A stretch of DNA of 64,000 bases from Sycon ciliatum (Eukaryota > Porifera > Calcarea > Leucosolenida > Sycettidae): NCBI RefSeq assembly GCF_964019385.1, contig NW_027044937.1, positions 1 through 64,000 of the forward strand, read 5' to 3'. The notes beneath the pieces are model-generated. The model saw only the letters and a program-made list of their open reading frames with translations. It searched no databases and was not told the origin of the DNA. Numbering within the stretch: the stretch's first letter is position 1; every line of letters starts with the position of its first letter. This document shows, one piece after another, positions 3,218 through 64,000 of the stretch. The position numbers were made by a program, and so were the translations under genes.

Positions 3218-4450
3218 GATTGTGTCAGCTGCTTACTGATCTCTAACTAACTTGCTACTTATACACAACAGCAAACTGTGACAACCCTTGCCTTCCAAGA
3301 AGGAAATAAATGTCTTGCTTTGAGTTTGATTCTTCACCAACACAAAGGAAAAAAATTGTACATTGTACTTCAGCCTCAGCAAACGCGAAGCAGGTACGTA
3401 GGGCTCTACGATCATCAGAGTTTCCACGCGTGCATGCATGAGACTGCATGCTGCGCTGCGTGGTGCAAGTACAGTGTCGAGGTCGTGAAGTTGCCCCGCA
3501 CAAAAAACCGCGGGAAAATTATGCATAGGTGCCATTGGGTATTCCCTCCCCAGTGTACGTTGAGCTGCGGGACCACGACGGGAAATTTCGTGCAGTTGCA
3601 CCAACGTTGGATAGAAAGTTGAAGAACTAGGTCTTTTTAAAGGAGCGTCTGCATAAGCTGGACAGACTCGCGAACGCTGTGGAGCATTGTGAAGGATTAT
3701 TAGCTTGGTTTCTATGCATATAGTGTTCAACGCTTTGCTCTCGACTGGCAGATTTTTATGCCTGTTCAAACTTGCTAATGTGTTTCCTTTGTTCGTGGGC
3801 GGTAGCTTCGACCATGGTCAAGCTGTTTCTTATCGGCTGATAAATCTTCTGCCTATTGAATCTCGTCTACTGGAGAAACAAGTGAAGGCTCAACTCATGA
3901 CAAACAAAATGGAAAACCGTCTCCTCCCCAGTTACTAGTAAAATCAGCTCATGCGATAATATTGCACGACACTGACCGACGGTACCGACGTTCTACATCT
4001 AACTGCCGATGAGCTCTAGCACTTGGATGCACACTCCAACAGCATCCCAACCTGGAAGGTTGTATTTTACAGAAAAAACATGGGAGGTGAAGGTGAGCGC
4101 AGCCAAGCCAAGCACGAGCTGAAAGTCACAGCTGTGAAGAACGTTGGCGGATGAACATGTATGTCGAAGACTACACTAGCAAGACCATGGGACAATACGG
4201 GAAAACCACAATCCAAGGACGCATAGCAACATACCACTCGACTTGTGTAGGTTTTTGAAATGTTCAAAGATCAATTGGAGGGGAAGATCAGCGAACTTGA
4301 ATTGTGTCGAACTGAACGCCTCAGTACTACATGTACTGCAATTCGACGAACACAATTTAGATGGACAAATAGGCAGCAGTTTCAGTCGACGATCGTTTTA
4401 CCGTACAGTTAGGGTCAGCAGCGTTGATCAGTACCGCACAATTATGTTAT
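3218..4450. other. Upstream region of the transposase, with a segment related to a MITE at 50.3 kb
   Basis: No coding region is supported; ORFs of up to 178 codons here have no recognisable features. The stretch around 3931-4140 contains CTCATGCGATAA followed by TTGCACGACACTGA and CTCCAACA, which recurs at 50.33-50.43 kb. The two share a dispersed element, possibly the non-autonomous relative of the transposon. Promoter elements were not identified. Confidence 0.4.
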
Positions 4451-20344: not shown

Positions 20345-20632
20345 TACACCTAACGCTTTCTGCCGAACTTTACACTTCGCTATCTCACGTCTGCCATTAA
20401 GAGCACACGAAAAGCCCGTTGCACCTTCCACCCGGAACACCTGCAAGCAAGCAACGCTCCCTGCTCAATACACAGTGTTTCGAGTGATCCATCCCTCATC
20501 AGTTGAGCTTGAGTAGGCTAAGGAATGTTGTGCCTGAAAACTCTAAATGATCACTTATAGAATGCGGACTTTTCGTGTGCTCTAAATGGCAGACGCGAGT
20601 TAGCGAAGTATAATGTTCGGCAGAAAGCTTTT
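20345..20632. repeat. Inverted-repeat element around a hammerhead (family of 42.3 kb)
   Basis: CTTTCTGCCGAAC and CACTTCGCTA with GAGCACACGAAAAG form the left arm. They are mirrored by CTTTTCGTGTGCTCTAAATGG and TTAGCGAAGT ending GTTCGGCAGAAAG. Between the arms lies a minus-strand hammerhead. Flanking blocks TGAGCTTGAGTAGGCT and CACAGTGTTTCG are shared with the plus-strand copy near 42.3 kb. Confidence 0.7.
20463..20508 (-). ncRNA. Hammerhead ribozyme
   Basis: The minus strand has a perfect 6-bp stem I (GCTCAA/TTGAGC), CTGATGA, GAAA, stem III ACA/TGT and a GTA cleavage site. All match the 42.3-kb copy. Stem II has decayed from GGGG/CCCC to a weak GGG/CTC pairing, so activity may be reduced. 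Confidence 0.68.
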
Positions 20633-23948: not shown

Positions 23949-24320
23949 TTGGACATATCCTGTTGTATTGCTCCTATAGTTCAACACCACCAACACCAGC
24001 AACACGACGAACAATGGACTACAGTTACCAGCCGCAAACTGAGAGGTTCTCTTGGCTCCCTGCGGAAAGTATACTTTGTTGGCAATATTGATGACAGTTG
24101 CGACGCAGACTCCATAACGTCCCACTGTGTCCAGAATGGCATCACACCCACAGCTTGCCGCACCTTTCCTTCTCGCAAGCATGTAGGCACAAAAGCTGCA
24201 AGGCTTACAGTCCGTGAAGACCAATGTGCAGCCATCGAGGCAGATGGGTTTTGGCCAGCGCCCATTCAGGTTCGGCCATGGGACTTCAGCGAGGCAAATA
24301 GGCCCACAGCCACCAACTAA
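23949..24320 (+). CDS. LINE ORF1 protein, C-terminal domain (probably 5' truncated)
   Basis: The frame contains KVYFVGNIDDSCDADSITSH, then CRTFPSRKHVGTKAARLTV and GFWPAPIQVRPWDF. This V-GN...FPS...GTKAARL...FWP...RPWDF layout is the conserved ORF1p domain of CR1/L2-like LINEs. The ORF lies just upstream of the intact ORF2, as in two-ORF LINEs. The first methionine at 23949 is arbitrary; the zone upstream (from about 23800) may also belong to ORF1. It ends at 24320, where an in-frame repeat region begins. Confidence 0.65.
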   Translation: MDISCCIAPIVQHHQHQQHDEQWTTVTSRKLRGSLGSLRKVYFVGNIDDSCDADSITSHCVQNGITPTACRTFPSRKHVGTKAARLTVREDQCAAIEADGFWPAPIQVRPWDFSEANRPTATN

Positions 24321-24324
24321 TCGA

Positions 24325-24567
24325 CCGTGTTCCCACTCAATCCCCATGCACCAGTCTTCTTACCTCGCATCTATCGTGCCCAACCCTGCTCAACAGCAGC
24401 CACGACCTTGTTCCCACTCAACCCCCATGCACCAGTCTTCATACCTTGCACCTATCGTGCCCAACCCCGCTCAACACCAGCCACGACCGTGTTCCCACTC
24501 AATCCCCATGCCCAGTTTTCATGCCTCGCACCTATCGTGCCCAACCCCACTCAACGTTTGTAAGAGA
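24325..24567 (+). repeat. 81-bp tandem repeat, three copies, between LINE ORFs
   Basis: Three copies of about 81 bp begin at GTTCCCACTCAA (24328, 24409, 24490). The length is a multiple of three, so overlapping frames stay open across it. One reads TYRAQP-type Pro-rich units. It lies at the ORF1-ORF2 junction and may tune ORF2 initiation; that is inference. Confidence 0.8.
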
Positions 24568-32559: not shown

Positions 32560-33933
32560 TACAGAAAAACCTGTAACTAAAGACCACCGTGACTAGCGAC
32601 CAGCCTGGTTCTACCGACCACTTCGCCAGGCACGGACGGTCTCATATTCAAAATTCACTGTGACTAGCGACTACCTGCTGAACGCGACCAGCGACCGCCT
32701 TTTCTTGCCCCAAAGACGATTATTGACCCGTAACTAGCTACGGCAATGTTTGAAGTCAAATGTTGCTCGAAGCTCCTTCTTGAAAATTTGCTGATTTTCC
32801 ATACAGCTGAACAAATGAACACAGGTCATTTTGACTGTGGAATCGGTGTGGACTGCACTACACCTGTCCAAATTTCACGCTCTGTCAAGAATAAACACGA
32901 TAGGAACCGTCTTGGAGAGCGCACCGAAAGCGCCCTCTCATCGATGTGATTACTCGGAGGAGAAACGAAGACAGAGCGGCTCTGACACCCCAGTCATACA
33001 GACGAATCGACGATGGCATCAAAGAATCCAGAACAAAGCAGCACCGCAAGGTCCTGATGCCGCGTTCAAGCAATCGAGAAGTTACAACAAGGACAGTCGG
33101 TACGATTGATCACATGAACAAATTTGAAGCCCAGCGTAAAACGAAACTTCTACAGGGAACGTTTGACTCTTGGTTTCAGAAGTAGCAGCTGAATTTGATG
33201 TCTGCAAAAAGTAATCTTCTACCTCTGTCTCTCTCCGTCTCTCTCTCTCTCCAAGTGTTGTTTGACCTGAAATAAGAATGGCATTGCGCAAGTCCTGGGA
33301 ATCATATTAGCTGCATTTTGACATACATTATCATATACGGGATCCATATATGGTCGCGCAGTGCAAACCTCTAACTAAAGACCACCTGCCACTAAAATAG
33401 GCCTTGACAGATTATGCTAGCATCATTTTTCGCATAATTCCTACCAAAATCGAATAATCGCATAATTCGAGGCAAATTGCATACGAATAGCATAAAATTG
33501 GAATATTCCGCCTGTTCGCATCAAAGTCCATGCAGTTGTACATGTTCTACAAGTACACGTACAAGCAGATGCACTAGGAAATCGTAGGTTTACGACTCCC
33601 TTGAGAACATGACCAGTCCACTGCAATCAGTGACGGTCGTAGCTAGGTCGAACGGTGCGTTGACCCCGTTGAACTTTTGCTACTACAGTACAACGCCCTC
33701 TACAAAAATCCCCTGTTATTTTGCACAGAGCAATTCTACATTAGCAGCATATGTGAGCATAAATGCGGCATAATAATGATAACTTTTAGCATAAAATAGC
33801 ATAATTCTGCAATTTTTTCAGCAATGCGAAAAGCATAATTTCACGAAAATATTAGCATAATCTGTCAAGGCCTACACTAAAGACCGCTTTTGCTGGCACC
33901 AAGGGGTGGTCGTTTGTTACAGGTTTTACTGTA
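32560..33933. mobile_element. Non-autonomous pogo/Tigger-like element with TA duplication (contains a hAT MITE)
   Basis: Ends CAGAAAAACCTGTAACTAAA and the complement of CAGTAAAACCTGTAACAAAC lie between TA dinucleotides at 32560-32561 and 33932-33933. It is the same family as 14480-15574, sharing the CACGGACGGTCTCA and GTGACTAGCGAC blocks. Small ORFs have no domains. A 477-bp hAT MITE interrupts the right part. Confidence 0.82.
33398..33874. mobile_element. 477-bp hAT-like MITE, copy 1
   Basis: Ends are TAGGCCTTGACAGATTATGC and its inverse. The target duplication is CACTAAAA/CACTAAAG (33390-33397 and 33875-33882). It is the same length as the copy at 37725 and in opposite orientation. GCATAAT motifs repeat inside the termini. 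Confidence 0.9.
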
Positions 33934-34720: not shown

Positions 34721-35180
34721 AAACACGTTGAACACATCAAGGAACACTTGTCACACTTTCACGAGGTGTGACACCAAACAACTGCAACGATAACACATTC
34801 TTCTTCTGGACACATAGTTCTGGATCTAGTTTACGAATATACAGAGCTTCTAACACAGCAAGATGTAACTTAGACCTTCCACGAGTTAAAACCGAAAAGA
34901 TAGATAGATTTGTCTACAACTTGCAGCTTTTGTTTTCGAGTTTTTAACACTTTAGCCATTTTATCGCCTATGTTGAACTGTTGACTTCTTCTCTATTTTT
35001 CTATTATAGTTATGTGTTTTTCCAAATTTCCAACATTCCCAGTACTATCCTGAAGAGAAGGGAAAGAAAACGTTTGATAGAAAAGAAGTGTCTACTGAAT
35101 TGTGTGGATTTGCGTCGTTGCATGCGAATACTGATTACGAAACTGTTTTTGTCCACCGCCTCCAAACTCCCGTTCGAATA
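34720..35180. repeat. Dispersed repeat (family of 21.8-22.2 kb), ending at (AAT)n
   Basis: Matches 21828-22150. Inside, TTTGTCTACAACTTGCAGC (34908) is the inverse of sequence joined to 21.82 kb. It ends against the first TAA tract of the mosaic region at 35178. Confidence 0.55.
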
Positions 35181-35199
35181 ATAATAATAATAATATTAG

Positions 35200-35797
35200 T
35201 AGAAAGGAAAAGGACATAATTATGGAAACGAGTTAAGAGTAACTCTCCACCACTGTAACTAGATACTATATACAGTCAGAAAGTGCAACAACTAGGCACA
35301 AAACTGACAGAGTACTGAGACATTCGACGTCCTGACACCTAGCTTCAACACATCTCCGTAGCGCTAACCGACAGCCTTCCAACTTGGAAGGTTCAAGGTT
35401 ATGGAAAGACCAAAGAGGGGAAGGCAAGCGAAACGAAAACGAGCACAAGCTACAGTCTCAACGGAACAAAGAATGTCGATTGTCACTGGACGATGACGAG
35501 ACCAGTAGGCGATTTGACACAGCGGTCTAACTACAATTCGAAGCAGCAAAGCAGCACACCACCCAACTTGGGTGGGTCAAAAATATCAAAGATAAGTAAG
35601 AAGGGGGAAGCTTTGCGAGAACGAATTGTACAAGCCGAAGTCTAAACTCCTACAGTACTCCTCATGCATGACATTGTGATGGACTAGTTGACTACAAAAC
35701 AAGTTGTTTCACACGACGTACGTTTCGCCGTATGGTTCGTGACGGCTCATCAGGTGTGCAATTTGAAACTCGGGTATTGAGCCAATAATAAAAGTAG
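35200..35797 (-). mobile_element. Ribozyme-bearing repeat unit (591-bp family), full copy
   Basis: From TAGAAAGGAAAAGGACAT to GTATTGAGCCAATAATAAAA this matches the tandem units at 62-64 kb, including the hammerhead at its right end. It is slightly diverged, for example an ATACGAG/AAACGAG difference. It is followed at 35803 by an inverted partial copy. Confidence 0.85.
35710..35758 (-). ncRNA. Hammerhead ribozyme (591-bp family)
   Basis: Minus strand: stem I CACAC/GTGTG, CTGATGA, stem II GCCGT/ACGGC with a 10-nt loop, GAAA, palindromic stem III ACGTACGT and a GTC cleavage site. Identical in all core parts to the array copies at 62-64 kb. Confidence 0.88.
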
Positions 35798-35802
35798 AAA
35801 GG

Positions 35803-36192
35803 AACCCCCCAAGTTGGGTGGTGTGCTGCTTTGCTGCTTCGAATTGTAGTTAGACCGCTGTGTCAAATCGCCTACTGGTCTCGTCATCGTCCAGTGACAA
35901 TCGACATTCTTTGTTCCGTTGAGACTGTAGCTTGTGCTCGTTTTCGTTTCGCTTGCCTTCCCCTCTTTGGTCTTTCCATAACCTTGAACCTTCCAAGTTG
36001 AAAGGCTGTCGGTTAGCGCTACGGAGATGTGTTGAAGCTAGGTGTCAGGACGTCGAATGTCTCAGTACTCTGTCAGTTTTGTGCCTAGTTGTTGCACTTT
36101 CTGACTGTATATAGTATCTAGTTACAGTGGTGGAGAGTTACTCTTAACTCGTTTCCATAATTATGTCCTTTTCCTTTCTACTTTTATTATTG
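35803..36192 (+). repeat. Inverted partial copy of the 591-bp unit
   Basis: Begins inside the unit at CCACCCAACTTGGG (inverse) and runs back to its GTAGAAAGG end. With 35200-35797 it forms a head-to-head dimer with arms of about 390 bp. The ribozyme part is not included. Confidence 0.88.
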
Positions 36193-36213
36193 GCTCAATA
36201 CCCGAGTTTCAAA

Positions 36214-36990
36214 TAATATTAGTGTGGCAACGTTGTTGCCACTTGTGCCTACATGTGTTTTGTCACCTTCTTGTTTAATATTGTTATTATTATCATTCGT
36301 TCTCACTTTTTTGTTTTTGTTGCTGATACACACTTGTCACGCTTAGTTCTTACTTGTATACCCTTGTGTTCTGCACGCTTTTGTGAGAAATCGCACCTCG
36401 ATATTCCAGTGCTGTCATTGTATCGTGTCACCCTACCTTGATTGCTATTATTATTTCCTTTGTTCTCATTTTGTTCTTTAGTACAACGGTGATTCCTGAA
36501 GAGTGTTGTACGAAAACTTGTTCGAATCATCTTTTTTTCCATTGCCCTTTTTCTTCTTACATGTATTTTCCTTACCCTTTAGATTGTTTCTTGCATCGTC
36601 TCCATCGCTTACATTGTTAATAAAGTAGTCCACATGTCGCTTCAGCTCGTCCTACTTATTGCCATATTAAAATTATTGTCTCCTCGTCGAATTTTTAAAT
36701 AATAATAATAACTTGAATAACGACTGATAAAGACTGATATTTCCTTTGTTACTACTCCCTTCATTGCCTGTCGCTGCAAATTCTTTATTACTGTTTTGAT
36801 GTTGGAGTTCGGATTGAGTTTCTTTCCTTTCTTCCTCTTCCTTCAACTATTTCTTGTCCCTTTGGTTTTTAGGTTTTATTTATTTATTTATTTTTGTTTT
36901 TTCACTTTCGTTTTGCTGTCCCACCCATGGAAATATTTCCCGGTGGGTCTGGCTTATCGCCTTCGAAAGAAGCGAATAAAGGAGAGATAA
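36214..36990 (+). repeat. Two LINE-like 3' ends with (TAA)n tails
   Basis: 36214-36704 carries GTGTTGTACGAAAACTTG and AATAAAGTAGTCCACATGTC, shared with 48.55-48.98 kb. 36712-36983 ends in GGTGGGTCTGGCTTATCGCC, then GAAGCGAATAAAGG and TAA repeats. Both look like 5'-truncated retroelement tails without coding sequence. Confidence 0.5.
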
Positions 36991-36991
36991 T

Positions 36992-37640
36992 AATAATTTG
37001 AAACTCGGATGTTGAGCCATAAATAAATGTAGAAAGGAAAAGACATTATGGATACGAGTTAAGAGTAACTCTCCATCACTGTAACATGATACTTTATACA
37101 GTCAGAAAGTGCAATAACTAGGCACAAAACTGACAGAGTACTGAGACATTCGACGTCCTGACACCTAGCTTCAACACATCTCCGTAGCGCTAACCGACAG
37201 CCTTCCAACTGGGAAGGTTCAAGGTTATGGAAAAGACCAAAGAGGGGAAGGCAAGCGCAACGAAAACGAGCAAAAGCTACAGTCCCAACGGAACAAAGAA
37301 TGTCGATTGTTACTGGACGATGACGAGACCAGTACGATATTTGACAAAGCGGTCTAACTACAATTCGAAGCAGCAAAGCAACACACCACCCAACTTGGGT
37401 GGGTCATAAAATATCAAAGATAAGTAAAGAAATGGGAAGCTTTGCGAAAACGAATTGTACAAGCCGAAAGCCAAACTCCTACAGTACTCCTCATGCATGA
37501 CATTGTGATGGACTAGTTGACTACAAAACAAGTTGTTTCACACGACGTACGTTTCGCCGTATGGTTCGTGACGGCTCATCAGGTTTGCAATTTGAAACTC
37601 GAATGTTGAGCCATAAATAAATGTAGAAAGGAAAAAGACA
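36992..37640 (-). mobile_element. Ribozyme-bearing repeat unit (591-bp family), copy 2
   Basis: Starts with TTGAAACTCGGATGTTGAGC, the unit end that follows the ribozyme. It continues through a whole unit and its hammerhead, then repeats the same end. The extra end shows it derives from more than one unit, as in a tandem or circular template. Confidence 0.85.
37539..37587 (-). ncRNA. Hammerhead ribozyme (591-bp family), stem I variant
   Basis: Same core as at 62-64 kb. The 5' strand of stem I reads CAAAC instead of CACAC, giving one mismatch in the 5-bp stem. Confidence 0.82.
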
Positions 37641-38251
37641 TGTCTCAGTACTCTGTCAGTTTTGTGCTTAGTTATTGCACTTTCTGACTGTATAAAGTAT
37701 CATGATTGTTACAGTGATGGAGAGTAGGCCTTGACAGATTATGCTAATATTTTCGTGAAATTATGCTTTTCGCATTGCTGAAAAAATTGCAGAATTATGC
37801 TATTTTTATGCTAAAAGTTATCATATTATGCCGCATTTATGCTCACATATGCTGCTAATGTAGAATTGCTCTGTGCAAAATAACAGGGGATTTTTGTAGA
37901 GGGCGTTGTACTGTAGTAGCAAAAGTTCAACGGGGTCAACGCACCATTTGACCAAGCTACGACCGTCACTGATTGCAGTGGACTGGTCATGTTATCAAGG
38001 GAGTCGTAAACCTACGATTTCCTGGTGCATCTACTTGTACGTGTACTTGTAGAACATGTACAACTGCATGGACTTTGATGCGAACAGGCGGATTATTCCA
38101 ATTTTATGCTATTCGTATGCAATTTGCCTCGAATTATGCGATTATTCGATTTTGGTAGGAATTATGCGAAAAATGATGCTAGCATAATCTGTCAAGGCCT
38201 AATGGAGAGTTATTCTTAACTCGTATCCATAATGTCTTTTTCCTTTCTACA
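37641..38251 (+). repeat. Inverted partial copy of the 591-bp unit, interrupted by a hAT MITE
   Basis: 37643-37724 and 38210-38251 are the inverse of the unit start (GTCTCAGTACTCTGTCAG to CTTTTTCCTTTCTAC), joined across the MITE target duplication. It forms a head-to-head partner to copy 2. Confidence 0.87.
37725..38201. mobile_element. 477-bp hAT-like MITE, copy 2
   Basis: Ends are TAGGCCTTGACAGATTATGC and its inverse, with an exact target duplication ATGGAGAG at 37717-37724 and 38202-38209. It is inserted into the ribozyme-unit copy, so it is younger than that copy. Confidence 0.93.
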
Positions 38252-38366
38252 ATAATAATAATAATACAGAGGCAATATGCTTTGGTTCTGCAAGAGTGCT
38301 CAATGCCTGATTCAGGCAGAGCGGCGTACACAAAGGCACACAATGAAAACCTTGGCAAATTTATTC

Positions 38367-38411
38367 CGTTGTGACTCCGAGTTTCATGGCTGAACCAATC
38401 ATCAGACAACG
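38367..38411 (-). ncRNA. Hammerhead ribozyme of the Penelope-like element, sense copy
   Basis: Minus strand: perfect 6-bp stem I CGTTGT/ACAACG, CTGATGA, stem II TGG/CCA (U-U closing) with loop TTCAG, GAAA, stem III ACT/AGT around CGG, and a GTC cleavage site. It lies downstream of the nuclease ORF in the same sense. Confidence 0.88.
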
Positions 38412-38539
38412 ATAATGGAATAGGAGGCAGCGCTGGTATATCTAAGTGGAGAGAGGTGTGATAATATGATAGCGAGAGGAGTAATCGCGTGAATGTATAC
38501 AGGGACGGGCTATTTCAGAGGCAGATGCAGTAGGCGCAG

Positions 38540-38760
38540 GTCTAGCACTAACAAGTACTAACACGCACACACATAGTAACACCCACACACACATACACAC
38601 ATGCACGCACACACTAACACACACATACACCCACCCACAACACCCTAACTTGCACACGGGCGCACGCACACACAGGACACCCACCCACCCACAACACCCT
38701 AACTCGCACACGCACAAACACACGCACACACGCATCTACACACACCTATAGACACATGTC
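38540..38760. repeat. (CA)n-rich tract, inverted copy at 39540-39760
   Basis: Imperfect CA repeats with internal CACCCACCCACAACACCCTA duplications. They belong to the inverted arms of the Penelope-like element. Confidence 0.9.
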
Positions 38761-38858
38761 CACACGTATACACAGGCATCTGCGTTCGTATGACAAATCT
38801 AAGCGCACACAAACTCCTGCAATCACGCGTCAAAAAAACCCGCAGCGGTCATAGCTGT

Positions 38859-39368
38859 CTATGTAATAGGGGTGGCCAGCAGAAACTTGCGCTGGTGAGG
38901 GCATTTAGATACCAGCTCACTTCTCTTGTTTAGGGAGGTAGCTTTTGAAGCTTTCAGGATGTGGAACTTTTCGGTTAAGCATAGGCCACACTTCTTGCTG
39001 ATGTTACTGTACGAAGGTGCTCTATCCTTGATCTCCCATGTGATGTCGAATCCGCGGTTCTCGTTTTTCAGATCCCAGATGTGCTTGGACAACTTAGTCG
39101 ATGCGGCGTACTTTTCATGGCGGAAGTCCGAAGTGTGTTTGTTGTAGCGCTGCTTGAATGTGGTAGCAGTCATGCCGACGTAGGTCTTGACTTCGTTGGA
39201 TGCTACATGCGCCTCGTACACGACGTCGGAAGACTGGCAGTCACCGTTGAGGGGGCACGACGCCTTGACCCGACATGGCACAACTGGCGGTCGCGAGTGA
39301 AGTTTTGCAGCATTGTGCCCTTTGATAATCGACGCTACGTTCTTCATACTCCTATGCTCCCTAAACAA
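38859..39368 (-). CDS. Penelope-like element GIY-YIG endonuclease, C-terminal part of a truncated polyprotein
   Basis: The 169-residue frame matches the linker plus endonuclease of Penelope-like retroelements. It has MKNVASIIKGHNA and CRVKASCPLNGDCQ (Cys motif), then VVYEAHV and TYVGMTATTFKQRYNKHTSD (GIY-YIG core with the conserved Arg and His). Next come LSKHIWDLK, a KKCGLCLTEKFHIL stretch with the catalytic Glu, and LNKRSELVSKCPHQRKFLL. The reverse transcriptase that should precede is absent because the copy is 5' truncated at the junction with the inverted repeat. The methionine at 39368 is therefore not a native start. The last residues lie in the inverted arm. Confidence 0.92.
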   Translation of the reverse strand: MFREHRSMKNVASIIKGHNAAKLHSRPPVVPCRVKASCPLNGDCQSSDVVYEAHVASNEVKTYVGMTATTFKQRYNKHTSDFRHEKYAASTKLSKHIWDLKNENRGFDITWEIKDRAPSYSNISKKCGLCLTEKFHILKASKATSLNKRSELVSKCPHQRKFLLATPIT

Positions 39369-39884
39369 GAGAAGTGAGCTGGTATCTAAATGCCCTCACC
39401 AGCGCAAGTTTCTGCTGGCCACCCCTATTACATAGACAGCTATGACCGCTGCGGGTTTTTTTGACGCGTGATTGCAGGAGTTTGTGTGCGCTTAGATTTG
39501 TCATACGAACGCAGATGCCTGTGTATACGTGTGGACATGTGTCTATAGGTGTGTGTAGATGCGTGTGTGCGTGTGTTTGTGCGTGTGCGAGTTAGGGTGT
39601 TGTGGGTGGGTGGGTGTCCTGTGTGTGCGTGCGCCCGTGTGCAAGTTAGGGTGTTGTGGGTGGGTGTATGTGTGTGTTAGTGTGTGCGTGCATGTGTGTA
39701 TGTGTGTGTGGGTGTGTTACTATGTGTGTGCGTGTTAGTACTTGTTAGTGCTAGACCTGCGCCTACTGCATCTGCCTCTGAAATAGCCCGTCCCTGTATA
39801 CATTCACGCGATTACTCCTCTCGCTATCATATTATCACACCTCTCTCCACTTAGATATACCAGCGCTGCCTCCTATTCCATTAT

Positions 39885-39929
39885 CGTTGTCTGATGATTG
39901 GTTCAGCCATGAAACTCGGAGTCACAACG
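39885..39929 (+). ncRNA. Hammerhead ribozyme of the Penelope-like element, inverted copy
   Basis: Mirror of the 38.4-kb ribozyme with identical core and stems, on the opposite strand in the upstream arm. Confidence 0.88.
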
Positions 39930-39968
39930 GAATAAATTTGCCAAGGTTTTCATTGTGTGCCTTTGTGT

Positions 39969-40380
39969 AATAATAATAATAATAATTTTTGAAAGGATTG
40001 GGAGAACTTCAAATACAAAGGATCAGATGGGGAAGGGAACTGCCTGAAAAGAGAAAAAACCGCCAGACCCACCAGGACTCGAACCTGGGACCCTGCTTGT
40101 CATGAGCAATGCTCTAACCACTGAGCTATGGGACCAGGCTGAACCTATAAGGCGCTGACAAGTTGTTCACTCCAAAGGCAGTTCACAACACGTGCCACAC
40201 ATACTGATGGCACTTGGGTCTTTCTCCCTCCCCCAGGGGACCGACCACGGTCAGTTTCTGGACCCTACCAGAAGTGAAAGAAAAGTGATTAATTTTTGAA
40301 AGGATTGGGAGAACTTCAAATACAAAGGATCAGATGGGGATGTGAACTGCCTGAAAAGAGAAAAAACCGCCAGACCCATC
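39969..40380 (-). mobile_element. tRNA-derived SINE family A, minus orientation, with a second partial copy
   Basis: Starts at (AAT)n, then body TTTTTGAAAGGATTGGGAGA, the complement of a TTTTTT pol III stop, then a tRNA-like head and a tail with GGGTCTTTCTCCCTCCCCCA. A second body begins at 40291 and is cut at the CAGACCCATC junction by the next TAA tract. Confidence 0.75.
40064..40135 (-). tRNA. tRNA-like head of SINE A
   Basis: A 72-nt cloverleaf forms: D stem GCTC/GAGC, anticodon stem TTGCT/AGCAG, T stem CCAGG/CCTGG around TTCGAGT. The acceptor stem has a mismatch and the anticodon loop CATGACA lacks U33. A box AGCTCAGTGGTTAGAGC and B box GGTTCGAGTCC are intact. It is a SINE promoter rather than a working tRNA. 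Confidence 0.65.
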
Positions 40381-40496
40381 AATAATAATAATTTTAATAT
40401 AGCTAGGAATAGGATGAAGGCCGCAGACATCACGCAACTAAGTTACTTGTTTGACATGTATTTACTGTGTATTTTATAACAAAAATATTATTGAAA

Positions 40497-40534
40497 ACCC
40501 ATAATCGATTTTCTTGTTCCTATCATCAGTGGGA
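40497..40534 (-). ncRNA. Degenerate hammerhead ribozyme
   Basis: Minus strand: CCCA/TGGG stem I, CTGATGA, weak stem II, GAAA and stem III AATCGATT. It aligns with the better copies at 42.74 and 43.23 kb. Confidence 0.45.
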
Positions 40535-40685
40535 AAAAATACGGAACTAAGGATACAACCAAAGAAACTGAAGTTAAGTACTGTAAATAGAAAGGTGTTA
40601 GAAATAACAACAAGATACAAGAGCAATAAAACCACTAGAGGAAACGGAGAAAGGTAACAAGATTGCGTAACCAAAGGCGAGAAGT

Positions 40686-40856
40686 TTTCTGTACTGTGTC
40701 GTGCGCGTTATGTCCAACAGTTGAAAGTCCTTGAGGCAGTTTGTATACGTATTCATAAGCCTGTTTTGTGTACGCAGAAGGAGCACGTTGTTGCACTGAA
40801 GTTGTATTCGTGGGTTGATACTTCGTTTAGCGCCTTCTCGCCTTTGGTTACGTAAT
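40686..40856 (+). pseudogene. Penelope-like endonuclease C-terminal tail
   Basis: The plus frame reads FSVLCRARYVQQLKVLEAVC then IRIHKPVLCTQKEHVVALKL and ends at TAA 40854-40856. A partner with nearly the same residues lies at 42.95 kb. The (I/V)LEA-x-x-I-x-x-x-KP-x-L block is the end of the GIY-YIG nuclease in Neptune-like Penelope elements. No upstream RT remains. Confidence 0.72.
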
Positions 40857-40968
40857 CTTGTTACCTTTTTACGTTTCCTCTAGTGGTTTTATTGCTCTTG
40901 TATCTTGTTGTTATTTCTAACACCTTTCTAACTTCATATTCAAAGGATCAGTCTTCTACGTTCAGCCT

Positions 40969-41040
40969 GGTCCCATAGCTCAGTGGTTCGAGCATCACTC
41001 ATGACAAGCAGGGTCCCAGGTTCGAGTCCTGGTGGGTCTG
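40969..41040 (+). tRNA. tRNA-like head of SINE A
   Basis: Same cloverleaf as 40064-40135, with GGTTCGAGC in the D arm. Followed by a T7 pol III stop. Probably non-functional as a tRNA. Confidence 0.65.
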
Positions 41041-41274
41041 GCGTTTTTTTCTCTTTTTAGGCAGTTCACTTCCCCGACTGATCCTTTGAATATGAAGTTC
41101 TCCCAATCCTTTCCAAATTTAATCACTTTCCTTCACCTCTGGTAGTTTCCAGAAACTGACCGTGGTTGGTCCCCTGGGGGAGGGAAAAAGACCCAAGTGC
41201 CATCAGTATGTGTGGCACGTGTTGTGAGCTGCCTTTGGAGTGAAAAACTTGTCAGCGCCTTCTAGGTTCAGCCT

Positions 41275-41346
41275 GGTCCCATAGCTCAGTGGTTAGAGCA
41301 TTACTCATGACAAGCAGGGTCCCAGGTTCGAGTCCTGGTGGGTCTG
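41275..41346 (+). tRNA. tRNA-like head of SINE A
   Basis: D arm GCTCAGTGGTTAGAGC and T arm CCAGGTTCGAGTCCTGG are intact. The anticodon stem carries a TTACT change that weakens pairing. A T7 run follows. Confidence 0.65.
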
Positions 41347-41423
41347 GCGTTTTTTTCTCTTTTCAGGCAGTTCACTTCCCCGACTGATCCTTTGAATATG
41401 AAGTTCTCCCAATCCTTTCCAAA

Positions 41424-41612
41424 TAATAATAATAATAATAATAATAATATTAACTGGTTTGAGGGAAAGAGACAAACGGGAAAAGTCTGAAGAAAAAATT
41501 GACTGTCACCACCAGGACTCGAACCAGGGACCCTCGCTTGTAGCCAGCGATGCTCAAACCACTGAGCTATGGTGTAGTGGTGTAATAATAATAATAATAA
41601 TAATAATAATAT
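41424..41612 (-). mobile_element. tRNA-derived SINE family B, copy 1
   Basis: Lies between (AAT)n tracts. On the minus strand: tRNA-like head, TTTTTT stop, body CTTCAGACTTTTCCCGTTTG then TCTCTTTCCCTCAAACC, and an (ATT)n tail. It is the shortest complete copy. Confidence 0.75.
41505..41576 (-). tRNA. tRNA-like head of SINE B
   Basis: D stem GCTC/GAGC, anticodon stem TCGCT/AGCGA with loop GGCTACA, T loop TTCGAGT with one T-T mismatch in the stem. The acceptor stem pairs at five of seven positions. Not a functional tRNA by inspection. Confidence 0.6.
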
Positions 41613-41900
41613 TAACTGGTTTGAGGGAAAGAGACAAACGGGAAAAGTCTGAAGAAAAAATTGACTGTCACCACCAGGACTCGAACCAGGGACCCTCGCT
41701 TGTAGCCAGCGATGCTCTTACCACTGAGCTATGGTGTAGTCGTCATCCCAGCAGAGGCCGTTCAATATTTTCTTCAGACTTCGTAACTCACACTTCCTGT
41801 GAATCCACACAGGCGGGTGGGACGCAGCCCTCACTGTAACCCACACACTTCACGTACAAACTAGCACGCGGGGAGCCCCAAGTCATAAAATAATAATAAT
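41613..41900 (-). mobile_element. tRNA-derived SINE family B, copy 2, with longer 5' part
   Basis: Same body and head as copy 1, then an extra 150 bp containing AGCAGAGGCCGTTCAATATT and CTTCCTGTGAATCCACACAG. A (TAA)n tract follows. Confidence 0.72.
41667..41738 (-). tRNA. tRNA-like head of SINE B
   Basis: Identical to the copy-1 head except at one D-arm position (TCTTACCA). A and B boxes are recognisable. Confidence 0.6.
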
Positions 41901-41912
41901 AATAATAATACG

Positions 41913-42490
41913 AAGTAGTGGTTGCGACTTCGGCGATGATTTGTAAGAAATGGTTTGCTCCCCACACCGGAGCTCGCGCTATTCCGCCGACTTTGGTAAC
42001 CCTTTCTTACAAATCATCGCCGAAGTCGCAACCACTACTTCGTACTGTTGTGCCCAGCGCGGGCTTGCGACTAGTTGGTTTGGAGGTGACAGCGTTGCGA
42101 ATGACCGAGGGTCCTCGACGTCTGTCTCACCGTCCAGGAGCGACACTGACTCACGCTCCTATCTGGTGTTCACGAGGTGTTTGTCGCGCTTGAAACGGAG
42201 CGTCTCTGTAAGTTTGTATCCCTGGTGATGTTTGTGCCTGGAGAGCACTATATAAGTGGTGCTCTTCAGGCACAATCTTCCTCAGCCTACTCAAGCTCAA
42301 CTGATGAGGGGTGAATTCCCCGAAACACTGTGTATTGAGCAGGGAGTGGTGCTTTCTTGCAGGTTTGCCGAGTCGAAGGTTCGATGGACTTCTCGTGTGC
42401 TCTGGATGGCAGTCGTGAGTCAGTCAAGTGTCAAGTAAAGTCGGCGGAATAGCGCGAGCTCCGGTGTGGGGAGCAAACCATTTCTTACAA
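41913..42490 (+). mobile_element. Hammerhead-bearing element with inverted ends (family of 20.3 kb)
   Basis: 41913-41948 and 41998-42045 form an inner palindrome (CGAAGTAGTGGTTGCGACTT). 41948-41995 (GAAATGGTTTGCTCCCCACA to CCGCCGACTTT) is inverted again at 42437-42485. A plus-strand hammerhead lies at 42.3 kb. No nuclease frame was recognised between. Confidence 0.7.
42295..42340 (+). ncRNA. Hammerhead ribozyme
   Basis: Textbook copy: stem I GCTCAA/TTGAGC (6 bp), CTGATGA, stem II GGGG/CCCC with loop TGAATT, GAAA, stem III ACA/TGT and a GTA cleavage site. All conserved core bases are present. Confidence 0.92.
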
Positions 42491-42520
42491 ATAATAATAA
42501 TAATAATAATAATAATAATT

Positions 42521-42622
42521 GTGAGTCAGTCAAGTGTCAAGTAAAGTCGGCGGAATAGCGCGAGCTCCGGTGTGGGGAGCAAACCCTTTCTTACAAATCA
42601 TCGCCGAAGTCGCAACCGCTAC
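42521..42622 (-). repeat. Partial repeat of the preceding element's end
   Basis: GTGAGTCAGTCAAGTGTCAA through GTCGCAACCGCTACT repeats 42414-42486 plus the 42.0-kb palindrome arm, between two TAA tracts. Confidence 0.75.
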
Positions 42623-42738
42623 TTAATAATAATAATAATCTACGTGGAGATAAAAGTTTAATAATAGCTATGAAAAGTATGAATGCCGCAGACATCACCA
42701 CGCAACATGACAATTTGTTCAAGGTTTGGGTTTGTGTG

Positions 42739-42778
42739 TTTCCAAAATCGATTTTCACGCTCCGATCATCAGTGGAAA
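42739..42778 (-). ncRNA. Hammerhead ribozyme of Penelope-like element 3, sense copy
   Basis: Stem I TTTCCA/TGGAAA (6 bp), CTGATGA, minimal stem II CG/CG (U-U closing), GAAA, stem III AATCGATT (palindromic), cleavage after TTT. Core bases are intact but stem II is only two pairs. Confidence 0.68.
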
Positions 42779-42949
42779 TACGGAACTAAAGAGATCAAGG
42801 GAAAAACAAAGGTTAAAAATCCAAAGAAGTGTGACACATGACAGGTAACTTGTGGTAAGTATTACAAAAAGTGAGAACTAAAATAAAGAGTAAGTGTGAC
42901 AAACGGGCATGAACAGTGCAGAAACAACTCATGAACACGGGGTGCAAAC

Positions 42950-43160
42950 TCACGAAAATAACCTAAGTGCTAAAACATGTTCTTTTTGCTTACACAAATC
43001 GGGCTTATGCGTACGAATACAAACAGCTTCAAGGACCTTCAACTGCTGGACATAACGGGCACGACACAGTACAGAGAAGTGGTCATACACACTAAAACAA
43101 TCGGGACGAGATAACAAATGCAAGTACACAGCTGACTTCTTACGAATTTCACCCTCATCA
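42950..43160 (-). pseudogene. Penelope-like endonuclease C-terminal tail
   Basis: The minus frame includes HFSVLCRARYVQQLKVLEAV then CIRTHKPDLCKQKEHVLALR, almost the same as the 40.7-kb fragment. It ends LFS before a TAG stop. Upstream nuclease and RT parts are gone, replaced by an acidic, unrecognised stretch (KTDEEESGGREGDG). Confidence 0.72.
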
Positions 43161-43228
43161 GCTCCATCACCTTCCCTGCCACCTGACTCCTCCTCGTCCG
43201 TTTTTCCCTTGATCTCTTTAGTTCCGTA

Positions 43229-43268
43229 TTTCCACTGATGATCGGAGCGTGAAAATCGATTTTGGAAA
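43229..43268 (+). ncRNA. Hammerhead ribozyme of Penelope-like element 3, inverted copy
   Basis: Mirror image of the 42.74-kb ribozyme with the same stems and core. Confidence 0.68.
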
Positions 43269-43359
43269 CACACAAACCCAAACCTTGAACAAATTGTCAT
43301 GTTGCGTGGTGATGTCTGCGGCATTCATACTTTTCATAGCTATTAATAATAATAATAAT

Positions 43360-43530
43360 TACCTGGTTTTGAGGGAAAGAGACAAACGGGAAAAGTCTGA
43401 AGAAAAAATCGACTGTCACCACCAGGACTCGAACCAGGGACCCTCGCTTGTAGCCAGCGATGCTCTAACCACTGAGCTATGGTGTAGTCGTCATCCAAGC
43501 AGAGACCGTTCAATGGTTCCTTCAGACTAA
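43360..43530 (-). mobile_element. tRNA-derived SINE family B, copy 3
   Basis: Same body, TTTTTT stop and head as the 41.5- and 41.7-kb copies, between (TAA)n tracts. Confidence 0.75.
43415..43486 (-). tRNA. tRNA-like head of SINE B
   Basis: D arm GCTCAGTGGTTAGAGC and anticodon stem TCGCT/AGCGA are intact. The T stem has the same T-T mismatch as the other copies. Confidence 0.6.
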
Positions 43531-43560
43531 TAATAATAGTAATAATAATAATAATTAAAA

Positions 43561-43660
43561 AAGCTTACGTGGAGATAAAAATGTAATCAGCGCAATAAAA
43601 CTTGTTTTCTGGCTTATGGTGTTTGTACTGAGTGCGCAGCTTACTCTATTTATTGCGTTG
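43561..43660 (+). repeat. Penelope-like terminal-repeat piece (family of 10.6 kb)
   Basis: TACGTGGAGATAAAAATGTA and GCGCAGCTTACTCTATTTAT match 10558-10812 inverted. Flanked by TAA tracts. Confidence 0.55.
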
Positions 43661-43683
43661 AATAATAATAATAATAATAATAA

Positions 43684-43951
43684 TGTAGAAGAGAAAAGGA
43701 CATATGGATACGAGTTAAGAGTAACTCTCCATCACTGTAACATGATACTTTATACAGTCAGAAAGTGCAATAACTAGGCACAAAACTGACAGAGTACTGA
43801 AACATTCAACGTCCTGACACCTGTCAGTTTTGTGCCTAGTTATTGCACTTTCTGACTGTATAAAGTATCATGTTACAGTGATGGAGAGTTACTCTTAACT
43901 CGTATCCATATGTCCTTTTCTCTTCTACATTTATTTATGGCTCAACATCCG

Positions 43952-43953
<2 letters not shown>
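43684..43953. repeat. Short hairpin copy of the 591-bp unit
   Basis: The first 130 bp of the unit (GTAGAAGAGAAAAGGACATA to CGTCCTGACACC) are followed directly by their inverse, running back to the same end plus GGCTCAACATCCG. Arms of about 125 bp meet with almost no spacer. No ribozyme is left. Confidence 0.9.
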
Positions 43954-43983
<30 letters not shown>

Positions 43984-43991
43984 TAATAATG

Positions 43992-56889: not shown

Positions 56890-57628
56890 TTACACAATGT
56901 CTTCTTCTTCATCTTCTTCTCTCTGACCCATACTTCCTTCTTCCTGGGTTTCTGAGAGTTCCAGCATTTCGCCTGTGCTTCTGAGACGGAATGTAGTGGT
57001 TTGTAGGGACCCTGTATCAGAAATTCCAACCAAAGGAGTTAGACTGGTGATGCTGGATAATTGCTGACTACTCAGCTGCCTATCCTCTTCCGAAAGCTGT
57101 CGATCCTCCAGGTTTCTTCCCTCTGCAGCAGGATTTTCAATGGTGGGGTTCCTTTCACTTCTGCTGCCCGGCCGGTGGGTCGAGGCGTTCGGTATAGATC
57201 CTGCGCTACCTGTTACGTTGGTCGAGCGCTGGGAAGTGCTTGTGAGCCTGGGGAAATGCAGCAGCACTGATGCAATGGATGCTCGCCAGGTGGTACGCAC
57301 GTCTACGTCACGTGACACGTGTAGAAAGATTCCCAGTCCCTGCAGAGTGTTGGTGATGGCAAAGATGAATTGAAGAGCGAGGTGATCATAGACGGCTACC
57401 AGGGCACCAAACAGCCAGGAAATTCCTAGCAGAACTGACAATGCAACGACGACTCGAAGTAGATACGACACACTGGACGTGTCTTTTGCCTTTCCTGTTA
57501 TCGCACTGCTTCTGTGATGGCGCAACAAGACTACTACTCGTACGATTACTGCTATATTTGAGAGCAGCCAGACACACATCGGAGCGATGAACGCTACGTA
57601 GAACACAGTATCGTTGGCAATCCAACAA
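56890..57628 (-). CDS. Adhesion-type GPCR, last exon: TM5-TM7 and cytoplasmic tail
   Basis: A CTGATTCCTGCAG acceptor at 57629 opens the exon. It completes a Tyr codon and continues CWIANDTVFYVAFIAPMCVW (start of TM5 with the conserved CW). TM5 ends near SNIAVIVRVVVLL. VVVALSVLLGISWLFGALVA is TM6 with the family B2 WLFG motif. LQFIFAITNTLQGLGIFLHV is TM7 with N-x-LQG. The 130-residue tail is Ser/Thr- and Glu-rich and ends EEDEEEDIV before the stop at 56890-56892. Adhesion GPCRs signal from the plasma membrane after GAIN-domain autoproteolysis; that domain is not in the window. Phase fits the TM4 exon at 58.8 kb exactly. Confidence 0.9.
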
Positions 57629-58777
57629 CTGCAGGAATCAGAAACACGAACAAACATCACAGTTCAGGATCCTAAGTGGTGTGTTACTGCGTGTTATGTG
57701 TGTACCATTGTACAGTGCTACCAAGTGCCCTCTACCCCGATGCGTACTGCCCCGTGCCATTTGGCAGAAATTTTCAGAGATTTGCGGCGTTGTTTTTCTC
57801 TTCAGGACAAATTTTTGACTGATTTAGTGAAATTTGGAAAAAAAAACGATACTGTACAACCTTTCCAGCTACAGGCTTCACGTCTTGTGAAGCCTACGAA
57901 TACAATTTTCAACTTCGCCAGGTCATTACTTTGGTCTACTTTGCTTGATTTGCACAATTTAGGGCTCGTTGGAAAGCGCTTCGCAGGAGCAACGCTAGGA
58001 TGCCAAGCTCCATTATGAAGCCGGTACAAATCAGGCGCGGTAGCACAGCAAAATCGTCTCTAAGCCTAATATGCAAGCAAATTCGCCCCATCAACGCCAT
58101 TCCACTCTCCTTCATCGCAGAACGCTCAACTTTTTTCTAGGCGATTCAAACCTCAGTCGGCTACATCATTATAAAGTGCTCGGTCGCTCAAAGAGCACAC
58201 AAAACGGGATTTCGCCCCAAAACGGCGAAGAGATCGATCAAACATTTGATTTTCCGTGGTAAGAATACCTGAATACGGAGCGCAATATCTGTGAAGTCCG
58301 ACATCGTATCTCTTCAGTGATTATTGCATTGGACAGCTTGCATTTGTTGCTACAACGTAGACCCTTCGATTGTTGCATTTGAACAAGGAACTATGGAGCT
58401 ACGAAGGTTTTAGTAATCGACTATACATGCACGTGAACGTTTGCGGGATATTCGATTGAAATCTGTACCGCGGATAAACTTCGTTTTTCCGTAAAAAATA
58501 TGGACAAATACGGGCGGTTGGCAACACGGTTTTGTATGTGTTTTGGTTTGCATCGCCAGTGTCATCTGACTTATCTTGCATGGAAAGCCCAGCATAGACA
58601 ATACGCAAGTCCAAAGTTGTGCCACTAGAAGAAAGAGAGAGGGAGACAGAGAGAGATGCTGAGAGAGAGAGATAAAGACAGCCAGACACAAAGACAGACA
58701 GAGAGACAGATATGGAGGGAGAGAAAGACATAAAGCGAGAGAGGGATACGCTAAAGGAATTCACATCATCGTCTTAC
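57629..58777. other. GPCR intron
   Basis: Contains GA-rich simple repeats at 58625-58745 and no other recognised feature. Confidence 0.5.
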
Positions 58778-61996: not shown

Positions 61997-62196
61997 NNNN
62001 NNNNNNNNNNNNNNNNNNNNNNNNNNNNNNNNNNNNNNNNNNNNNNNNNNNNNNNNNNNNNNNNNNNNNNNNNNNNNNNNNNNNNNNNNNNNNNNNNNNN
62101 NNNNNNNNNNNNNNNNNNNNNNNNNNNNNNNNNNNNNNNNNNNNNNNNNNNNNNNNNNNNNNNNNNNNNNNNNNNNNNNNNNNNNNNNNNNNNNNN
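61997..62196. other. Assembly gap (200 N)
   Basis: A round-number run of N between two tandem arrays, so the true missing length is unknown. Confidence 0.99.
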
Positions 62197-62214
62197 TGTC
62201 TTTTTCTCTTCCAC

Positions 62215-62215
<1 letters not shown>

Positions 62216-62247
<32 letters not shown>
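62216..62247. repeat. (AAT)n tract bordering the ribozyme array
   Basis: About ten AAT units immediately before the first 591-bp unit. The sequence before it (GTCTTTTTCTCTTCCACAAT) is the inverse of the unit start, so an inverted copy probably lay in the gap. Confidence 0.9.
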
Positions 62248-62248
<1 letters not shown>

Positions 62249-62754
62249 TAAAAGAGAAAAGGACATATGGATACGAGTTAAGAGTAACTCTCCATCACTG
62301 TAACATGATACTATATACAGTCAGAAAGTGCAATAACTAGGCACAAAACTGACAGAGTACTGAGACATTCGACGTCCTGACACCTAACTTCAACACATCT
62401 CCGTAGCGCTAACCGACAGCCTTCCAACTTGGAAGGTTCAAGGTTATGGAAAGACCAAAGAGGGGAAGGCAAGCGCAACGAAAACGAGCAAAAGCTACAG
62501 TCCCAACGGAACAAAGAATGTCGATTGTTACTGGACGATGACGAGACCAGTACGATATTTGACAAAGCGGTCTAACTACAATTCGAAGCAGCAAAGCAGC
62601 ACACCACCCAACTTGGGTGGGTCATAAATATCAAAGATAAGTAAAGAAAGGGAAGCTTTGCGAAAACGAATTGTACAAGCCGAAAGCCAAAATCCTACAG
62701 TACTCCTCATGCATGACATTGTGATGGACTAGTTGACTACAAAACAAGTTGTTT

Positions 62755-62803
62755 CACACGACGTACGTTTCGCCGTATGGTTCGTGACGGCTCATCAGGT
62801 GTG
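62755..62803 (-). ncRNA. Hammerhead ribozyme, array unit 1
   Basis: Stem I CACAC/GTGTG, CTGATGA, stem II GCCGT/ACGGC with a 10-nt loop (CACGAACCAT), GAAA, self-complementary stem III ACGTACGT and cleavage after GTC. Every conserved core base is present. GTTT and AAAC can extend stem I beyond an internal loop. Confidence 0.93.
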
Positions 62804-63345
62804 CAATTTGAAACTCGGATGTTGAGCCATAAATAAATGTAAAAGAGAAAAGGACATATGGATACGAGTTAAGAGTAACTCTCCATCACTGTAACATGAT
62901 ACTATATACAGTCAGAAAGTGCAATAACTAGGCACAAAACTGACAGAGTACTGAGACATTCGACGTCCTGACACCTAACTTCAACACATCTCCGTAGCGC
63001 TAACCGACAGCCTTCCAACTTGGAAGGTTCAAGGTTATGGAAAGACCAAAGAGGGGAAGGCAAGCGCAACGAAAACGAGCAAAAGCTACAGTCCCAACGG
63101 AACAAAGAATGTCGATTGTTACTGGACGATGACGAGACCAGTACGATATTTGACAAAGCGGTCTAACTACAATTCGAAGCAGCAAAGCAGCACACCACCC
63201 AACTTGGGTGGGTCATAAATATCAAAGATAAGTAAAGAAAGGGAAGCTTTGCGAAAACGAATTGTACAAGCCGAAAGCCAAAATCCTACAGTACTCCTCA
63301 TGCATGACATTGTGATGGACTAGTTGACTACAAAACAAGTTGTTT

Positions 63346-63394
63346 CACACGACGTACGTTTCGCCGTATGGTTCGTGACGGCTCATCAGGTGTG
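63346..63394 (-). ncRNA. Hammerhead ribozyme, array unit 2
   Basis: Identical to unit 1, exactly 591 bp further. Cleavage at both would release a 591-nt RNA. Confidence 0.93.
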
Positions 63395-63936
63395 CAATTT
63401 GAAACTCGGATGTTGAGCCATAAATAAATGTAAAAGAGAAAAGGACATATGGATACGAGTTAAGAGTAACTCTCCATCACTGTAACATGATACTATATAC
63501 AGTCAGAAAGTGCAATAACTAGGCACAAAACTGACAGAGTACTGAGACATTCGACGTCCTGACACCTAACTTCAACACATCTCCGTAGCGCTAACCGACA
63601 GCCTTCCAACTTGGAAGGTTCAAGGTTATGGAAAGACCAAAGAGGGGAAGGCAAGCGCAACGAAAACGAGCAAAAGCTACAGTCCCAACGGAACAAAGAA
63701 TGTCGATTGTTACTGGACGATGACGAGACCAGTACGATATTTGACAAAGCGGTCTAACTACAATTCGAAGCAGCAAAGCAGCACACCACCCAACTTGGGT
63801 GGGTCATAAATATCAAAGATAAGTAAAGAAAGGGAAGCTTTGCGAAAACGAATTGTACAAGCCGAAAGCCAAAATCCTACAGTACTCCTCATGCATGACA
63901 TTGTGATGGACTAGTTGACTACAAAACAAGTTGTTT

Positions 63937-63985
63937 CACACGACGTACGTTTCGCCGTATGGTTCGTGACGGCTCATCAGGTGTG
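63937..63985 (-). ncRNA. Hammerhead ribozyme, array unit 3
   Basis: Identical to units 1 and 2. The unit continues beyond the window edge. Confidence 0.92.
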
Positions 63986-64000
63986 CAATTTGAAACTCGG

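Follow-up and report, generated by a model that had tools for sequence, protein, structure and literature searches.

At the downstream end of a 64,000-nt stretch of the Sycon ciliatum genome (hereafter the window; C257:1-64000 of an assembly of 538 Mb in 313 contigs) lies a run of direct repeats, each bearing a hammerhead ribozyme motif. This arrangement raises the question of what type of element the repeated unit represents, and by what route such a unit returns from RNA to DNA.

Hammerhead-bearing units in a tandem array

Comparison of the sequence with itself revealed units that begin 591 and again 591 bp apart, of which the first two are alike at 591/591 bases and the third is identical to them over the 570 bases up to the window end (Table 1). 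The tandem of identical units reported in the initial annotation is thus confirmed, although its start at 62209 was placed slightly early, as an (AAT)11 tract precedes the units. Beyond the window the array extends over C257:62245-68070, amounting to 9.86 units, and is followed by a 180-nt inverted arm and then by (AAT)n; of the nine full units that it contains, six are identical to the query and three differ by a few bases. The units were correctly described as non-coding, the longest ATG-initiated ORF on the circularized unit being 47 aa, and their GC content is 43.1%.

A full hammerhead resides on the minus strand of each unit, as had also been proposed, with cores at 62760-62798, 63351-63389 and 63942-63980. 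Each unit matches the Rfam type I hammerhead model with 26.8 bits (E = 8.4e-4 for the 2.1 kb searched, 0.025 for the whole window), and because the curated cut-off, 34 bits, is higher, these hammerheads are absent from a search at the gathering cut-off. A strict geometric scan, demanding the core together with at least 4 bp in stem I, at least 4 in stem II and at least 2 in stem III, returned five matches in the window versus none in 60 simulated windows generated by a first-order Markov model with the same base-step frequencies. These five comprise the three array copies, an older copy at 35715-35753 and a copy at 42301 belonging to a second family; in another older copy (37544-37582) stem I is changed, and it fails the scan. 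The self-complementary stem III was originally presented as a distinctive trait, a view that we reject: the Rfam type I consensus has a palindromic stem III without a loop (ACGcgCGU), and the accessible text of PMC7229834 describes axolotl and invertebrate hammerheads having a one-pair stem with a palindromic tetraloop and a two-pair stem III, which makes a loop-less palindromic stem III ordinary. Over the insertions that we fetched from the genome (see below), the 39-nt hammerhead core contains 2 minor calls in 1833, versus 104 in 26352 elsewhere (Fisher p = 0.048), and this segment ranks only 185th of 591 for low variation, so that the evidence for constraint is weak.

Other traces of hammerheads occur in the window. 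Behind the diverged relative of the unit, a decayed hammerhead (4327-4460) retains a self-complementary stem III, ACGATCGT in place of ACGTACGT (by eye). Two hammerhead-like motifs on the plus strand (5144-5180 and 5379-5415) lie 235 bp apart inside an 82% direct repeat, and are perhaps an old classical retrozyme dimer of ~235 bp; a further hammerhead-like motif is found on the minus strand near 46427. The hammerhead pattern was also sought in viral contigs, and none was found. The gene and transposon content (Table 1) fits an animal genome.

Table 1. Positions of features in the 64,000-nt window
Feature	Position	Strand	Remark
YqaJ domain	3-545		
THAP/DDE transposase frame	1292-3232		
Diverged relative of the 591-bp unit	4036..4337	-	65.6%
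LINE with endonuclease and RT	24302-27532		
Older 591 insertion	35203..36214	+ arm 35203-35799, - arm 35802-36214	apparent TSD ATAATATTAG
Older 591 insertion	36995..38251	+ arm 36995-37641, - arm 37640-37725 and 38202-38251	split by ~480-bp repeat
Putative Penelope-like element fragment, two-armed	38266..39968	-	tail end 38266, no-tail end 39968; GIY-YIG-type ORF 38859-39395 on minus
RZ2, 478-bp unit, two-armed	41909..42495	+	(AAT)n at both ends; hammerhead 42295-42340 on +
Short two-armed 591 insertion	43682..43952	.	(AAT)n tract on each side
Secretin-type receptor fragment	56890-57663		
End of a second 591-type copy, opposite orientation	62197..62214	+	enters N gap 61997-62196; by eye
(AAT)11 tract, left border of 591 array	62215-62247	.	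precedes units
Retrozyme unit 1, 591 bp	62249..62839	-	RNA sense = minus strand
Type I hammerhead, unit 1	62754..62804	-	predicted cut between 62760 and 62759, after GTC
Site B (unit 557-558)	62805..62806	-	second insertion start point of 591 family; A-B interval ~31-33 nt
Site A (unit 588-591)	62836..62839	-	one of two insertion start points of 591 family
Retrozyme unit 2	62840..63430	-	identical to unit 1
Type I hammerhead, unit 2	63345..63395	-	Rfam match
Retrozyme unit 3	63431..64000	-	clipped by window end; array continues to C257:68070
Type I hammerhead, unit 3	63936..63986	-	Rfam match

Two-armed insertions dispersed through the genome

The initial annotation had suggested a genome-wide search for the unit and a sizing of the array. 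Querying the genome with a single unit yielded 231 matches. As scoring was confined to the best 40 of 526 candidates and the listing of matches is incomplete, the sample favours young, intact copies. Among the matches listed are at least 39 loci including the window array, and 37 of the 38 further ones reside on contigs of 28-98 Mb, which speaks against assembly duplication. The loci were fetched with their flanks as 40 stretches (L009-L048, of which L009 holds the window array and L048 adjoins L011). When 94 outer flanks were compared, no two loci matched each other on both sides, and the one-sided matches, by our reading, involve neighbouring repeat families.

Alignment of these loci and of the window to the circular unit revealed 49 head-to-head two-armed insertions sharing a common plan, in which an AT-rich flank, usually (AAT)n, is followed by tandem units running one way, tandem units running the other way and the opposite flank. 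One arm starts at unit position ~590 and the other at ~557, an interval of ~31-33 nt, and we accordingly assigned outer ends to class A (unit 584-5) or class B (unit 555-568). All 39 insertions with both ends classed have one A and one B end, with no instance of AA or BB. The remaining ten have at least one end outside these classes. The window insertion at 36995 is split by a repeat of ~480 bp, and ends at unit 590 beyond it; the missing end of L048 is the L011 array, which starts at B; L047 and L034 have ends at 581 and 580, near A; L019 and L035 are cut by an N gap or by the end of the fetched stretch; and four end elsewhere (two in L012 and one each in L040 and L041). The ~480-bp repeat itself (37721-38201; a second copy, 97.9% alike, lies at 33398-33878) has inverted ends (by eye) and looks like a non-autonomous DNA transposon.

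Tracts of (AAT)n or (ATT)n with at least three repeats occur on both sides of 35 of the 49 insertions, on one side of nine and on neither side of five. Where the tract is clear (36 A/B insertions), the AAT-ending strand carries the A arm 19 times and the ATT-ending strand 17 times, which amounts to no strand preference. Target site duplications (TSDs) of 7-10 bp are readable in three insertions located outside or at the edge of microsatellites: AATAAAC in L024, TTCAAATTTA in L036 and ATAATATTAG at window position 35203. The inner joints of the 49 insertions display overlaps of 1-16 nt in 26 cases, are blunt in 12 and contain extra bases in 11; the overlaps of only 1-2 nt (14/26) may be due to chance. 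The smallest insertion spans 0.46 units in total and the largest 10.2, with a median of 2.3; the longest complete arm contains 9.9 units, and the longest single run (L011) measures 11.2 units. More than one unit is present in 59 of the 99 arms that have at least 95% identity and are longer than 80 nt. Matches without a partner arm are truncated where a fetched stretch or the window stops, belong to a split copy, or are short or older pieces; one of them, 43 nt long in L025 (864-906), appears one-armed.

An ordinary satellite expanded by unequal crossing over, or a duplication in the assembly, with the hammerhead carried as a passenger, could explain why the arrays are long and nearly identical and why an N gap adjoins the array in the window. 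The 38 further dispersed loci, the fixed start sites, the TSDs, the inverted arms of unequal lengths and the unlike flanks argue so strongly against both versions that we reject them, and consider such an origin highly improbable. In combination, the fixed start sites, the dispersed copies and the TSDs, where readable, support retrotransposition of the unit.

The unit is best classed as an animal non-LTR retrozyme. In common with the metazoan non-LTR retrozymes described in the accessible text of PMC7229834, it contains one type I hammerhead per unit, forms dispersed non-coding tandem repeats that range from dimers to long multimers, has a GC content below 50% (43.1%) and is flanked by TSDs longer than 4 bp (7-10 bp). 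The units described there measure 170-400 nt, compared with 591 nt here and 478 nt in the second hammerhead family of the window (RZ2); because the same source calls retrozyme sizes species-specific, we treat these figures as a range rather than as a criterion. The earlier proposal of an element of the animal retrozyme kind, longer than those described, therefore stands as far as this range is concerned, although the size is not unique, since the hammerhead-containing tandem repeat pDo500 of Dolichopoda is ~500 bp long (PMC2837043); in the accessible text, pDo500 is described as satellite DNA with no insertion structure. Plant LTR retrozymes (PMC7229834, PMC7761336, as far as accessible) resemble the 591 family in unit size, in tandem hammerheads and in a circRNA intermediate, which for the 591 family would be presumed, but they are distinguished by a type III hammerhead, LTRs, TSDs of 4 bp and a proposed mobilisation by Ty3-Gypsy elements, as opposed to the type I hammerhead and 7-10 bp TSDs found here.

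Resident elements and probable Penelope-type integration

The architecture of the insertions is strongly reminiscent of Penelope-like elements. According to the accessible text of PMC11167929, the Penelope (Poseidon) protein of Anolis cuts and extends both DNA strands and prefers ATT, and initiates reverse transcription internally, at two neighbouring sites whose intervening segment becomes a tail of 30-40 bp. In Adineta, Penelope elements have an inverted pLTR, and one of the inverted ends bears a tail of 31 bp; their TSDs, which some copies lack, measure 8-10 bp (PMC3846280, accessible text). These elements, as portrayed in the two sources, share with the 591 family the partial tandems, a head-to-head inverted copy, a hammerhead, a tail of ~30-40 bp at one inverted end (here the tail-like interval of ~31-33 nt), an ATT or AT-rich target and short TSDs. 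Unlike them, the 591 unit encodes no protein, and hence lacks the ORF with RT and GIY-YIG domains that defines the group, and its type I hammerhead is complete; its role would be that of a passenger, and it is not a Penelope-like element in its own right. A Penelope partner was proposed in PMC7229834 from shared hammerheads, tandem copies and co-existence, and PMC7761336 considers Penelope/Terminon elements likely partners from their co-occurrence, with no conserved motif in the repeats that would reveal the partner, whereas PMC11722881 (December 2024) still lists both LINEs and Penelope-like elements (each source as far as accessible).

A candidate partner is present in the window itself. The two-armed fragment listed in Table 1 contains an ORF (38859-39395) with 86 relatives, of which 3 of 16 aligned members match GIY-YIG (best E 7.7e-4); the window copy itself scores below the cut-off, and a relative from Solemya velum (P0089) passes it. 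Searches of Pfam, NCBIfam and PDB, and a profile comparison with the LINE in the window, called no RT domain in the ORF of this element, for which the motifs FYPSI and YRDDG suggest a putative reverse transcriptase. One member of the family (L060) has an open frame of 688 aa. Relatives of the ORF were also looked for in viral contigs, where none was confirmed. A genome search with the element gave 54 matches (the best 40 of 2366 candidates being scored), and the loci examined comprise 17 that were fetched, L049 and L050 from the search, and six end pieces of three more. A 61-nt tail at one end and none at the other was found in 8/8 two-armed copies with both ends readable, of which about six are independent because two pairs share flanks; this count excludes L065, L067 and the end pieces from C14 and C9. 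TSDs of 11-12 bp occur in L051, L053 and L063.

RZ2 exhibits a similar organization. Its genome search gave 188 matches (best 40 of 218 candidates scored), from which 17 loci were picked because the listing showed two arms, and their ends were fetched. One A and one B end were found in 15 of these 17 picked copies (one AA, one BB) and in all three further copies (window 41909, L028 and L045), 18/20 in total, with start sites ~33 nt apart. Two pieces look one-armed (window 42521-42624 and L027 725-966). A diverged RZ2-like hammerhead (82%) lies on the minus strand near 20495, in the region 20354-20538. For all three families, the 591 unit, RZ2 and the putative Penelope-like element, the outer ends are consistent with a template corresponding to the strand that bears the hammerhead or the coding sequence.

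Insertion at (AAT)n tracts is wider than the retrozymes. A tRNA-Ser-like unit of ~306 bp (T306) forms (AAT)n-flanked head-to-tail arrays at window positions 39983-40381 and 40953-41424 and in L021 (5-925), L027 (2438-3401) and L048 (2106-3197), the L021 copy having two arms, which start at unit 305 and 27. A second tRNA-like tandem family of 281 bp (T281) is found within (AAT)n at 41441-41581, 41603-41896 and 43358-43528, and in L023, L038, L016 and L014. Since both families share the siting and the tandem structure, these two traits extend beyond retrozymes. A total of 19 of the 25 AAT/ATT tracts in the window fall within 8.8 kb (35177-43990), many of them bordering nested retrozyme, Penelope-like or tRNA-like insertions, a pattern that would arise if every insertion brought further landing sites with it.

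These tRNA-like arrays bear on another possibility, namely that LINE-type machinery with a preference for (AAT)n mobilises the retrozyme by twin priming. T281 sits in (AAT)n in a single orientation, with no joined head-to-head pair among the 17 pieces found (in L016 a short inverted piece lies beyond an AAT tract), so that more than one machinery may use such tracts, and open LINE frames are present in the window. Twin priming by LINEs is an occasional event, whereas the complete young 591 insertions in our sample are two-armed, bar the 43-nt piece in L025. Moreover, two fixed start sites, used once each, match the Penelope tail, a feature that PMC11167929 calls "unique" to Penelope-like elements in its accessible text. 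We consequently regard mobilisation by LINEs as improbable. It appears likely instead, judging from the structure of the insertions, that Penelope-type machinery copies the retrozyme RNA, which is probably circular, from both strands of the target. Speaking against this reading are the Rfam score under the curated threshold, the RZ2 copies with AA or BB ends, the one-armed pieces of RZ2 and of the 591 family, the four 591 insertions with ends elsewhere, the sub-threshold GIY-YIG score of the window copy and the lack of an RT call for the resident ORF.

The RNA template of an insertion

The sequences of the arms bear on the nature of the template. Across 312 unit pieces, the difference is 0.132% within an arm and 0.129% between the arms of one insertion, compared with 0.828% between insertions. 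At 13 informative sites, each with the minor base in at least three insertions, the two arms agree 507 times and disagree once, whereas randomly chosen insertions are discordant in 20.8% of comparisons. Among 593 insertion-site cases with at least two units, 585 are homogeneous and eight mixed, six of the latter in L032; this homogeneity suggests that each move would pass through a single-unit bottleneck. In the 65 arms with an identity of 96% or more, the predicted cut site is crossed 130 times, and an indel within 10 nt occurs at none of these crossings. The use of one A and one B site and the shared sequence of the arms are thus shown, from which we infer that both arms would be copied from one RNA molecule. 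The arm concordance and the clean crossings would fit a single-unit template, and hence a circle, without constituting proof.

Alternatively, the template of this machinery might be linear, either a multimer read from a pre-existing array and left uncleaved, or monomers connected through jumps from one template to the next. The Penelope protein of Anolis accepts uncleaved, unprocessed RNA in vitro and does not need an active hammerhead (PMC11167929, accessible text), which counts against a circular template. Tandem arrays of tRNA-like units with no known ribozyme occur in the same genome: in the four loci scanned (three T281 arrays and the T306 array in L021), Rfam called no ribozyme besides the 591 hammerheads, and tandemness alone is therefore no proof of a ribozyme-made circle. 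Furthermore, units within one array are alike, so a multimer derived from a single array would likewise yield similar units. Template jumps, by contrast, would be expected to leave some indels at the 130 crossings of the cut site, and a linear multimer is difficult to reconcile with the preponderance of homogeneous over mixed cases, which suggests passage through a single unit, and with complete arms of up to 9.9 units, hard to obtain from an actively self-cutting RNA. Linear templates therefore seem to us unlikely.

Folding predictions do not favour formation of the hammerhead. The circle of 591 nt has a predicted MFE of -175.2 (z -5.3 versus 60 dinucleotide shuffles), and in this fold the tail between sites A and B pairs with the ribozyme core, AUGGCUCA with UGAGCCGU, at pairing probabilities of 0.8-1.0. 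Forcing the hammerhead in this fold costs ~10 kcal/mol, and the 64-nt motif by itself is predicted to fold otherwise (z -0.76). The model, which ignores tertiary contacts, thus predicts that the hammerhead would be masked by the tail in the circle. The corresponding pairing was looked for in the RZ2 fold and not seen, and for this reason we dropped a general RNA switch, retaining it as an idea specific to the 591 family.

These considerations suggest the following route for Penelope-type copying of a circular retrozyme RNA. Minus-strand transcripts would cut themselves at the predicted site in the hammerhead and would then be ligated into 591-nt circles. Penelope-type machinery, for which the resident GIY-YIG element is a candidate, would bind the RNA around the two start sites, separated by ~31-33 nt and lying immediately 5′ of the ribozyme. 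It would nick the target, which is AT-rich and in most cases an (AAT)n microsatellite, on both strands, and each of the two DNA 3′ ends would prime synthesis on RNA of the same sequence, one from site A and the other from site B. The two cDNAs would run 0.06 to ~11 units along the template, and the joining of their free ends would generate the head-to-head tandem arms. In its most specific form, which we put forward tentatively, this would be a two-headed rolling-circle version of target-primed reverse transcription: a dimer of Penelope-type RT may copy one circular ribozyme RNA simultaneously from both nicked strands, with one RT always at A and the other at B, such that each insertion would be the record of a single circle, and the duplicated (AAT)n landing pad might seed more insertions.

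Retrozymes of this kind are already known, and what is new here is the structure of their insertions, two-armed, mostly sited at (AAT)n and begun at two start sites. This structure is undescribed for metazoan retrozymes in the accessible text of PMC7229834, and we recognised no report of it in a search of titles and abstracts that lay mostly outside the subscription literature. The scars left by the 591 family provide structural evidence on how animal retrozymes return to DNA, and the rule that they reveal, one A end, one B end and arms of one sequence, is checkable in any animal genome that bears retrozymes. They also bear on the question of why Penelope elements themselves are tandem and inverted.
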